From positions 1-64,000 of IMG/VR virus record IMGVR_UViG_3300033997_000092: a stretch of 64,000 bases of DNA; one strand, 5' to 3'. Both the position numbers and the translations under genes were made by a program. Below, in pieces: positions 6,855-60,200 of the stretch. The notes beneath the pieces are model-generated. The model worked only from the letters and a program-made list of their open reading frames with translations, did no database searches and was not told the DNA's origin. The DNA is from a virus. Positions within the stretch are counted from its first letter, which is position 1, and each line of letters opens with the position of its first letter.

Positions 6855-7208
6855 ATGCTTCGGTTACAACAGCAACTAGATATGGACTACAGGAAATGTT
6901 CATGTGGTGCCAAACTGGAACGTGTTGTTATTAGCCAACAACACACGAACGGTCTGTGGAACGAAAAGCAGGAATTCAAATGCGGACGCATTGATGTGTT
7001 TGTTCCCAACTTCCAGGATTTGGTTCCGTGCAAACCTGACTCGACACCGTGCCCGAAAAGCCCAGAAGAAGCAGAGCGTTTAGCTGTTGAACAAAGGCAA
7101 TTGGAAGATGCTCAGACTCAGCTTGAGCGCGATTATCCTCACTTAGGTCCTGTACTTGCAGCAAGTATAGCCAAAACGATTTTAAAAGCAAAGAAGGAAA
7201 AGCAATGA
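6855..7208 (+). CDS. Zinc-ribbon-like protein, 117 residues
   Basis: ATG 6855 follows AAGGAG. The N-terminal half has cysteines at residues 15, 17, 43, 59 and 66 (CSC...FKCG...C...C), which could bind zinc. The C-terminal half is a charged helix (EEAERLAVEQRQLEDAQTQLERDY) suited to coiled-coil pairing. It overlaps the SspB-like gene by ATGA, so the two products are made together. Function unknown; it could be a client, or a partner that delivers clients, of the adaptor. Confidence 0.5.
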   Translation: MLRLQQQLDMDYRKCSCGAKLERVVISQQHTNGLWNEKQEFKCGRIDVFVPNFQDLVPCKPDSTPCPKSPEEAERLAVEQRQLEDAQTQLERDYPHLGPVLAASIAKTILKAKKEKQ

Positions 7209-7690
7209 ACTCTTTTGATTCATCCAAAGCAGCGCGTATTAACCAAATCCGTGATAGCCAGAACAAACTCAAGCGGAGACTGTTTGTAGAACTGGCAGTG
7301 TTCGTTCTAATGGCCGAAGATGAAAACGCTACTAATAGTACAGTAGTGCGGTTACCTCAAATTGAAATGGCTCCACAACTGGAACACGATGTTGCTGGTG
7401 GTAAACTTGTGTTGAGCATAGGAAGTAATGCCTGTCCTGTATTGCGTTTCACCGAAAGCAACGGCCAAGTGTTTATCGAAGGCGGCATCACTAAAGGCGG
7501 TGTACCCTGTTCGTTTAGATTTCCACTGGATTACGTTATTTGTGTGCGCGATCCAGACTCTGGTGAAATTGCTGCGTTTGAGCATTTGATGAATGTTCGT
7601 TTTTCTCAGGACTATCAAGAAGCACAAGCGAACTTCGAGCAGTCCACAGCAAACACCAAAAAGAAACCTCACCTGACAGTAGTAAAATAA
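7205..7690 (+). CDS. sspB: SspB-like ClpXP adaptor with a C-terminal ClpX-binding peptide
   Basis: This 161-residue protein lines up with bacterial stringent starvation protein B, which brings ssrA-tagged and other substrates to the ClpXP protease. After an N-terminal helical region, residues 66-126 (GKLVLSIGSNACPVL...GGVPCSFRFPLDYV...) match the SspB beta-sandwich GQIVLNI...GGIPRQVSVPLAAV in order and spacing. Residues 127-150 are a flexible, acidic/Gln-rich linker. The last residues, KKKPHLTVVK, resemble the SspB tail RPALRVVK, the segment that docks on the ClpX zinc-binding domain. A matching core, linker and tail make the call strong. The gene is ATGA-coupled to a zinc-ribbon-like gene. 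I infer that the phage uses it to redirect host ClpXP, to degrade host or defence proteins, or to compete with host SspB. Confidence 0.78.
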   Translation: MNSFDSSKAARINQIRDSQNKLKRRLFVELAVFVLMAEDENATNSTVVRLPQIEMAPQLEHDVAGGKLVLSIGSNACPVLRFTESNGQVFIEGGITKGGVPCSFRFPLDYVICVRDPDSGEIAAFEHLMNVRFSQDYQEAQANFEQSTANTKKKPHLTVVK

Positions 7691-7700
7691 GGAAGTAATT

Positions 7701-9770
7701 ATGAAGCAGCTTCAATTGTCGCCTGAAGGAAAAATGCACTGGGCTGAATATACACGCAACGCCTGTATTAAGATCGAAGACAATCCTGTCACAAACAGTA
7801 TGCCTACTTTCATTCCTGTTGAAGGCAAGAAAGATTTCTTCGGTATATTGGGTGCGTGTGGTATAACTCCTGACGGAAATAAAGCTCCTGCAGCTACAGC
7901 GGCGAAAGCACTAGAGACGGTTATAGCTAAAACGAAAGGCAAATATCCAGGCGTAGCGACATTGCCTTTTCTAGTCTGGGTTACTTCAGGTGGCGGTGAC
8001 GTCCAACAAAAAGCCAGTATGTATACTGTGCTAAATAAAGCACTGGTCGACACATACATGCCTACTCTGATCAATAGGCTTGCTTTGCCTGAAAACAGAG
8101 AAGACTTTTTGGAAACACTGGAATCCATCAGAGCGGTTGATTCTGCGGCTGTTGACAACGGTGAGGCGGCTTTCGAGCGTGACAATTCATTCCCTTGGTC
8201 ACGAGGAAGACAGTGTGATTTGATTTGGCGCAATAGAACGATTGGTTTAATATCTGACCTGTTGCGTGACTGTACGATAACGGTTAAAGATAGCACTATC
8301 CATCCTTCTACAGAAAATGTGATTGCTGAAAACACATTCATGTTTCTGATGTACTTGGCTATCACTGTGGGTCTGGTGCCTCAACTCGTTGCCTACGCAC
8401 TTACTAATCTAGGTATGCAACGCTACTTACCGAATTTGATAAGCGGTCCATTACGTAAGCTTATGGAAGAACAGATGGTTTTGGTAGACGGCAAACTAAA
8501 CCCAATCATCTACCACTACATAGCCAACGTAATGTACGACAACAACGTGGTGATACGTTATCTACTCAGCGACAAACCAAGCGAAGGAGAGTACAGCCAA
8601 GCCTTGTATCATCTGAAATTGATTGGTAAGAGTATAGATGAACGCCTTGATGCAGTATGTGATGGCAAAACAATTCTGTCTGTATTTGGATTCGACACTG
8701 ATATAGGTACCGAAGTTCCTTCCACAGTAATGCGTATGGAAGAATTCTATGTCAAAGACAGTTTGAATTCCACTGTATCACAAATGAACAACTATATCTC
8801 CTTAGATAAGTTGAACAAAATCGCTACCATCAAGGCAATCTTGGCTCCGTTCCAAGAAGCGCAGATGTCTAGTGCCTTGCGTGTGAAATACTCACGTGGT
8901 ATTAAACTGGTGCTGGCTGACATTATCGAATGTGCCGAAACACTGAACAGCACTCAGGTCCACGTCCAATCGTTGGTAGAAGCACTGTCGATTGCCTCAA
9001 TCACTGAGATGGTCCAGAAACTGGCGGACATTGATAAGAATGTCGATGTCCAAATCCAAGCATTGGATATGTTAGTCAAAGAAGCATTATGGGCAAACGA
9101 AGAAGCCAATGACGTAACTTTGCAACAGGAGCCAGTTGCTGCCAAATCCGAAAGTGAACTTGTTGCAATGTATGAAGATGAAATTCATACTCTAACAGGT
9201 CGTGTGCAGGACTTAACTACACAACTGCAAGATGCACAGCAGAAGTTACAGAAAGCAGGCCAGTTGATTGCCGAACAGCCTACACAAGTAGCTCCTGTTG
9301 TTAAGTGTGACCACAACCTGTTACAACGTGCGTTGAGCGACGACCTGCGTCTGTCAGAAATTCCTGATATTGTCAAAGCTTACTTTAGCCATGTTGTGTT
9401 TTTGCCAGGCAGCACCGACGAGTTGAAGAACTCCATCTACAAGAAGCCTGCTAAAGTATTGGAAGCACTGATTCGTTTGTGTGGTCCGTACTACGAAACA
9501 TTGATGTCAGGTAAGCCTGACTCAGTAGCAATGGAAATCATGGGCAATCTGTACCGTGCTAACGAAAGCGGCTTGACTATGGGTACTCCTGATTTGCGCC
9601 GTCTGCGTGAATTTGAAGTAAACGGCAAACGTGTGGAGTTTGAACAACATTTGGATATTGGTACACGTCACGGCGATGCGTATTGTATGCAAGTACACTT
9701 CCGTATTATCGAAGGTGTTCTTTACATAGGCCGTATGGGCGGTCACCTGCCTGTAAGCAAATTGCGTTAA
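7701..9770 (+). CDS. Large hypothetical protein with coiled coil and a conserved-looking C-terminal module
   Basis: This 689-residue protein is the largest product of the + strand block. Residues 1-470 are mostly helical and unrecognised, with a hydrophobic helix around residues 215-235 (FMFLMYLAITVGLVPQLVAYAL) that may be buried. A coiled coil spans about 484-527 (DEIHTLTGRVQDLTTQLQDAQQKLQKA). The final ~150 residues end in FEVNGKRVEFEQHLDIG...CMQVHFRI...LYIGRMGGHLPV. This R-x-F-x-V-x-G...HL...HF...IG-x-x-G-x-HLP pattern resembles a C-terminal module in many uncharacterised bacterial proteins. AGGAAG precedes ATG. It directly follows the SspB-like gene, 10 bases away, and is followed by a terminator-like hairpin. 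Confidence 0.5.
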   Translation: MKQLQLSPEGKMHWAEYTRNACIKIEDNPVTNSMPTFIPVEGKKDFFGILGACGITPDGNKAPAATAAKALETVIAKTKGKYPGVATLPFLVWVTSGGGDVQQKASMYTVLNKALVDTYMPTLINRLALPENREDFLETLESIRAVDSAAVDNGEAAFERDNSFPWSRGRQCDLIWRNRTIGLISDLLRDCTITVKDSTIHPSTENVIAENTFMFLMYLAITVGLVPQLVAYALTNLGMQRYLPNLISGPLRKLMEEQMVLVDGKLNPIIYHYIANVMYDNNVVIRYLLSDKPSEGEYSQALYHLKLIGKSIDERLDAVCDGKTILSVFGFDTDIGTEVPSTVMRMEEFYVKDSLNSTVSQMNNYISLDKLNKIATIKAILAPFQEAQMSSALRVKYSRGIKLVLADIIECAETLNSTQVHVQSLVEALSIASITEMVQKLADIDKNVDVQIQALDMLVKEALWANEEANDVTLQQEPVAAKSESELVAMYEDEIHTLTGRVQDLTTQLQDAQQKLQKAGQLIAEQPTQVAPVVKCDHNLLQRALSDDLRLSEIPDIVKAYFSHVVFLPGSTDELKNSIYKKPAKVLEALIRLCGPYYETLMSGKPDSVAMEIMGNLYRANESGLTMGTPDLRRLREFEVNGKRVEFEQHLDIGTRHGDAYCMQVHFRIIEGVLYIGRMGGHLPVSKLR

Positions 9771-59058: not shown

Positions 59059-60156
59059 TTAACGCTTGGCTTTTGCTACTGAGCGTGGGTTGGCCAGAAC
59101 GAAAGACATGATTTCGTTCAGTAACCAGCCCTTAGTAGTTTCACCCTGATTCTCGCCAGAAGTCGGACGAGAAGTGATACCACCACGCACGTTCATTACA
59201 CCGTGGTTCTCACGGTCAGAAACAACATAGATGTCACCACGATCCAGAACACGTTGGTTCTCAGGACGGTAACCGTCTGTCATCAGTTCCAGGCCGTACA
59301 GTGTACCAACTTTACCAGTCATTACCAGTTCATACTGGGCAACTGGAGTCAGAGCATCAGCCCACTGAGGTTCAGCGATGATGTCTTCCCAGAAGTTGTT
59401 GGCGATCAGAGCTTTAGTAGCCGGCAGGTTCCAGTCAGTAACCTGAGTACGCAGTGCACCGATAACAGCAGGAGTTAAACGGCCTGAAATCAGAGTGATG
59501 TTGTTAGCAACACCGACAGTCATATCAGCAGCACGTTTCCAAATGCGGTCGCGGCCAGTAACCATTGCTTCCAGAGCTTGACCGTAAGCGTGGTCCAGCA
59601 AATCGTGAGTAGCCTGACCCAGGTCTAACTCAGATACACGGACGTTTGCTTTCAGTTCAAATTCCTGAGGGAAGAAGTAACGGTCTTTGATCAGCTGGTA
59701 ACCCATTTGAGTCGGGCTAGTAGCCACAACAGCTTGAACATCGTGACGAGGCATTGGCACACGTGGCGCTTCACCTTGACGCAGTTCGTTGATCATTACC
59801 AGGCTTGACATGAAGCCTTGACGGGTTTGCTGTTCACGGACGTCTTCAGAAATGGTAGCACCTAAAGATGCCCACAAATCAGCGTCAGCGTGTGCCGCTT
59901 GCAGAATGTCGCGCTTATCAGCGTTTGACATTGAAGCGAAAGTTTTCTGACCTTCGTTAACAGCAACAATTTGACCGCTGGCTAAAGCCATCATCAAAGC
60001 TTGTTGTTGTTGCAACAGGTCTTTAAAACCAGAAGCGTTGATTTCACCAGTTGAGCTGCTAAGGGCTTTCATACCCTGACCAGGCAACACCAGATCCGCT
60101 AAATCGCCGCCGTTGGCCAGACGAAATGTTACACCCTGCTTAGGTAAGTTCTTCAT
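59059..60156 (-). CDS. Probable major capsid protein (HK97 fold)
   Basis: ATG 60156 is preferred; the upstream TTG at 60171 overlaps the GGAG site. The 365-residue protein has an N-terminal helical part rich in Gln/Ala (LLQQQQALMMALASGQ), then FFPQEFELKANVRVSELDLGQATHDLLDHAYGQALEAMVTGRD, the elongated helix and strand area of HK97-fold shells. Its C-terminal WADALTPVAQYELVMTGKVGTLYGLELMTDGYR is the A-domain pattern found in many such proteins. Its GC-rich, optimal codon use, its stem-loop downstream and its position after a decoration-like gene support a major shell subunit. No portal or terminase gene lies in the window. Confidence 0.7.
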   Translation of the reverse strand: MKNLPKQGVTFRLANGGDLADLVLPGQGMKALSSSTGEINASGFKDLLQQQQALMMALASGQIVAVNEGQKTFASMSNADKRDILQAAHADADLWASLGATISEDVREQQTRQGFMSSLVMINELRQGEAPRVPMPRHDVQAVVATSPTQMGYQLIKDRYFFPQEFELKANVRVSELDLGQATHDLLDHAYGQALEAMVTGRDRIWKRAADMTVGVANNITLISGRLTPAVIGALRTQVTDWNLPATKALIANNFWEDIIAEPQWADALTPVAQYELVMTGKVGTLYGLELMTDGYRPENQRVLDRGDIYVVSDRENHGVMNVRGGITSRPTSGENQGETTKGWLLNEIMSFVLANPRSVAKAKR

Positions 60157-60200
60157 ACCTTGTATCTCCAAAATTGTTCAACCGAGAACTCAGCGCCTAA

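Follow-up and report, generated by a model that had tools for sequence, protein, structure and literature searches.

The SspB-like Gene and its Neighbors

The stretch of DNA analyzed here (the window, 64,000 nucleotides in length) is part of a 261,032-base virus record, and it contains an open reading frame whose 161 amino acid product is, as judged by sequence comparison, a highly diverged homologue of the bacterial adaptor SspB, which delivers proteins to the ClpXP protease. The features of the locus and the lines of evidence for each are as follows.

6855–7208, + strand: upstream Cys-rich, zinc-ribbon-like gene, 117 aa (ATGA overlap; distant homologue in HRDY3)
7205–7690, + strand: divergent SspB-like adaptor gene, 161 aa (open reading frame, phrog_8945, NCBIfam SspB, hhalign, profile test)
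7274–7579, + strand: SspB-like folded domain, residues ~24–125 (alignment, AlphaFold2 with alignment, Foldseek PDB)
7583–7660, + strand: linker of about 26 residues (127–152), of low model confidence (pLDDT, disorder)
7661–7687, + strand: predicted ClpX-docking tail KKPHLTVVK, residues 153–161 (tail comparison; unique in the genome)

The SspB-like reading frame starts with ATG, is preceded by the purine-rich sequence AAGGAAAAG, and overlaps the termination codon of the upstream gene in the sequence ATGA at 7205–7208. This overlap suggests that the two genes are probably co-translated, but it does not suggest a shared function. The 117 aa zinc-ribbon-like protein has a homologue in phage HRDY3 (XDJ15392.1, 35% over 60 aa), with the pattern QH..GLWN....F.CG..F.PN conserved and some of the Cys positions kept. 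The original prediction had proposed that the zinc-ribbon-like protein is a partner or client of the adaptor, and this finds no support; a partnership was rejected because the coupling is not conserved, HRDY3 having the homologue and no detectable SspB. Downstream lies a 689 aa gene (7701–9770, + strand), residues 559–686 of which match the PADLOC defence models NsnC (E 1.1e-7) and HEC-07 (E 4.1e-6). No relative of this neighbor was found in a phage collection of 50,697 records, nor by peptide patterns in IMG/VR.

The major capsid protein gene is located at 59059–60171 (– strand), and its product is closest to that of NCTB (51%), followed by those of Lu11, HRDY3, PaBG and the Alexandravirus group. 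The presence of a tail sheath and a tail tube protein points to a jumbo myovirus, of 261 kb and with NCTB, PaBG and Lu11 among its relatives.

Homology to SspB

The relationship of the 161 aa protein to SspB is distant, and the Pfam SspB model (PF04386) does not match it. It is matched by phrog_8945 ('stringent starvation protein SspB-like') in a PHROG search with an E value of 1.6e-4, residues 32–161 aligning with positions 17–149 of the 149-position profile, and this reading frame is the only match to phrog_8945 in the entire 261 kb record. Three NCBIfam families also respond, all of them SspB (best E 0.0033), although the score of 17.3 bits misses the curated cut-off of 191. Such cut-offs are an unfair measure for phage forms, as the RAY protein falls below those of NCBIfam, and that of phiKZ below those of both NCBIfam and Pfam. 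Profile-profile comparison with six SspBs using hhalign gives a probability of 95.8% (E 7.5e-9).

A profile built from 16 bacterial and phage SspBs scores the protein at 26.2 bits, compared with 10.7 for the highest-scoring of 20,000 shuffled copies and no more than 4.1 for any other reading frame in the window. The SspB signal does not rest on the tail, since the score is still 21.9 bits when the last nine residues are removed; residues 60–130 by themselves score 14.4 bits. A profile made from bacterial SspBs only gives 13.9 bits, barely above the best shuffle (12.5), and the phage relatives are therefore needed as a bridge to SspB. These searches bear out the proposal that the phage encodes an SspB-like protein, and the alignments likewise uphold the more specific claim that residues 66–126 follow the SspB beta-sandwich in order; the likeness in fact extends back to helix 1, near residue 24.

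No close relatives of the 161 aa protein were found in the 50,697 phage records by tblastn, or in IMG/VR by peptide patterns. In a tree of 19 SspBs it lies on the longest branch, and as the support for its placement is 42, we make no claim as to the origin of the gene.

Predicted Fold

Strands are predicted at residues 45–49, 67–71, 79–85, 88–97, 100–107, 111–115 and 122–124, in addition to helix 1. The outcome of fold prediction, one of the checks suggested in the original prediction, depends on the information supplied. A structure model made from the single sequence is too poor for use (pLDDT 37), and a structure search with it returned no SspB, nor any match at all. When SspB rows are present in the alignment (AlphaFold2 with 23 aligned SspBs), the model contains helix 1 and the beta strands, with a mean pLDDT of 66 and blocks of 82–87 over residues 81–110, and only SspB is matched: the best 19 Foldseek matches in the PDB are all SspBs or their orthologues, including the alpha-proteobacterial forms, and there are no non-SspB entries at an E value of 0.2 or better. 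The best match has an E value of 1.4e-5, and TM scores by target are 0.60–0.73 for most matches; because the model used SspB rows, this agreement is partly circular, and is support rather than independent proof. In a viral structure library, the named top matches include phage SspBs and phiKZ-like proteins. The alignment-guided model lends support to a predicted SspB fold for residues ~24–125. The linker that follows is 73% disorder-prone residues, and pLDDT falls below 50 at residues 127–137.

A Conserved Tail and an Altered Substrate Domain

The C-terminal KKPHLTVVK is predicted to be a ClpX-binding (XB) tail following the linker. Its resemblance to the docking tail of E. coli SspB, put forward in the original prediction, is confirmed at five of nine positions (GRPALRVVK), and the match to phage SspBs is closer still, with seven of nine identical in both NCTB (KKPTLSVVK) and pf16 (KKPTLRVVK), and eight of nine in RAY (KKPTLTVVK). 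The core of the RAY protein is only 18% identical, and given that core identity the binomial probability of an 8/9 tail match is 7e-6. The 261 kb record contains 1,149 reading frames with a length of 50 aa or more, and the SspB-like one alone ends in a PxLxxVK-type tail. Docking-type tails are present in most of the phage SspBs examined, with those of Vibrio phage SspBs alike only in part. Together with the profiles and the fold comparison, this conservation supports the predicted layout of substrate domain, linker and docking tail. LucasX has an SspB domain that scores above the Pfam cut-off and has lost the docking tail, possibly permitting substrate binding without docking. In P. aeruginosa SspB, substitution of residues 128–135, which match the tail, with alanine weakens ClpX binding from 27 to 179 nM (PMC13251409), and the XB peptide of E. 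coli suffices to recruit ClpXP (PMC12373786).

The substrate half is considerably less well conserved. At 44 core positions conserved among the sampled bacterial SspBs (Enterobacterales and beta-type forms), the 161 aa protein is identical at 15, and the residues corresponding to E. coli F72, A74, R75, F76, Y94, R96, E97 and N98 are all replaced. These positions are taken to lie in or adjoining the strands expected to bind peptide. Scanning of the phage reading frames for ssrA-like C-termini and AANDENY-like motifs yielded chance-like matches only, and no convincing SspB-binding motif was seen in them.

Comparison with Known SspBs

The bacterial SspBs of gamma- and beta-proteobacteria (PF04386; PDB 1OX9, 1OU8, 1YFN, 8ET3) share with the 161 aa protein the predicted fold, the order of elements, the linker and the C-terminal docking tail, but the phage protein has only ~24% core identity, a longer N-terminus and many changes at invariant residues, and falls below the Pfam and NCBIfam thresholds. 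SspB homologues are present in a variety of phages, including phiKZ and its relatives, Psa21, SNUABM_54, LucasX, NCTB and Vibrio phages. Two had been reported previously: gp18 of Pseudomonas phage pf16 (PMC5587285), and gp039 of Erwinia phage RAY (PHROG 8945), which is cytoplasmic and outside the phage nucleus (PMC10299810). A phage-borne SspB is thus not new, and the protein described here is a new and very divergent example. Both reported proteins have the docking tail noted above, but pf16 gp18 is near to host SspB (53% to E. coli over its core), whereas the 161 aa protein is far from any host SspB, and RAY is a nucleus-forming chimallivirus with an SspB that scores above the Pfam cut-off.

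The nearest phage by capsid, NCTB, encodes an SspB (120464–120874) that has a similar tail but only 18% core identity to the 161 aa protein and a different gene neighborhood; it is a homologue, with no implication of orthology. The NCTB gene is annotated as hypothetical, and its annotated start at 120527 is too late and cuts off helix 1. Profile searches of Lu11, HRDY3, PaBG, AD1 and fHe-Yen9-02 found no SspB, and with one present in NCTB the gene appears to be patchy within this phage lineage. PHIKZ232 of phiKZ and gp299 of Psa21 also have an SspB domain and a tail-like end (PxLTVIKGGKK or PxLTLIQGGKK), but are longer (248–302 aa), and long inserts separate the domain from the tail. Neither has been assigned a function in its annotation, and in both the GGKK is terminal and follows the docking-like motif.

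Possible Roles during Infection

The 261 kb record was searched for a ClpX zinc domain, ClpP and tmRNA and none was found, so the tail, if it acts at all, would have to act on host ClpX. During infection, the phage protein would use its tail to dock on the N-terminal zinc-binding domain of host ClpX, and proteins gripped by the SspB domain would be tethered to ClpX and degraded by host ClpXP; it may concurrently displace host SspB from ClpX. It is reasonable to infer that the phage protein captures host ClpXP. Many bacterial-invariant residues near the expected peptide-binding strands are changed, yet the tail has been preserved, and for this reason the protein would probably deliver chosen host or phage proteins, either instead of ssrA-tagged ones or alongside them. 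We think it fairly probable that this phage version of SspB docks on host ClpX and delivers at least some clients that are not ssrA-tagged. A more specific form of this proposal, which we advance tentatively and at less than even odds, is that it is a retargeted viral adaptor in which the docking tail has been kept and the substrate face rebuilt, such that host ClpXP would destroy specific non-ssrA host proteins, for example those of defence or transcription.

These proposals must be weighed against other roles. A working ssrA-tag adaptor would take tmRNA-tagged proteins to ClpXP and so, late in infection, sustain quality control and the supply of amino acids; it would account for the overall homology and layout and for the SspB folds, ssrA-bound forms among them, that are the top structural matches. 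It seems quite unlikely, however, as few of the bacterial-invariant residues around the strands expected to bind peptide are kept, there is no tmRNA in the phage record, and the host presumably has an SspB of its own. Alternatively, the protein could act as a competitor whose tail occupies ClpX and ousts host SspB and other adaptors, lowering the delivery of ssrA-tagged and other substrates and perhaps sparing phage proteins. If the tail binds the same ClpX site, such competition would be expected, and the docking tail is indeed more strongly conserved than the substrate domain; yet the tail by itself would suffice for this, and a folded domain, detectable without the tail, has been retained, making competition as the principal role rather unlikely.

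Finally, the resemblance to SspB could be fortuitous, the product being a small beta protein unrelated to SspB whose VVK tail arose by accident. The silence of the Pfam model, the failure of the single-sequence model to match any SspB and the weak score of the bacterial-only profile would all accord with this, but independent models concur (PHROG, hhalign and NCBIfam), the full-profile score stands well above all 20,000 shuffles, and an SspB with the same tail is clearly present in the related phage NCTB. We regard coincidence as very improbable.

For a phage-encoded adaptor that redirects host ClpXP, as we favor, there are precedents in phage SPO1 Gp53, an adaptor-like protein for ClpC (PMC6873191), and in the ClpS adaptors encoded by jumbo phages (PMC7824862). 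We found no reports in the literature of what any phage SspB-like protein delivers. Curated SspB models overlook genes such as the one at 7205–7690, and SspB-like genes recur across several unrelated jumbo and large phages. With its near-unchanged docking tail and strongly altered substrate domain, the protein described here offers a good test of whether ClpXP may be reprogrammed by exchanging the substrate end of an adaptor.
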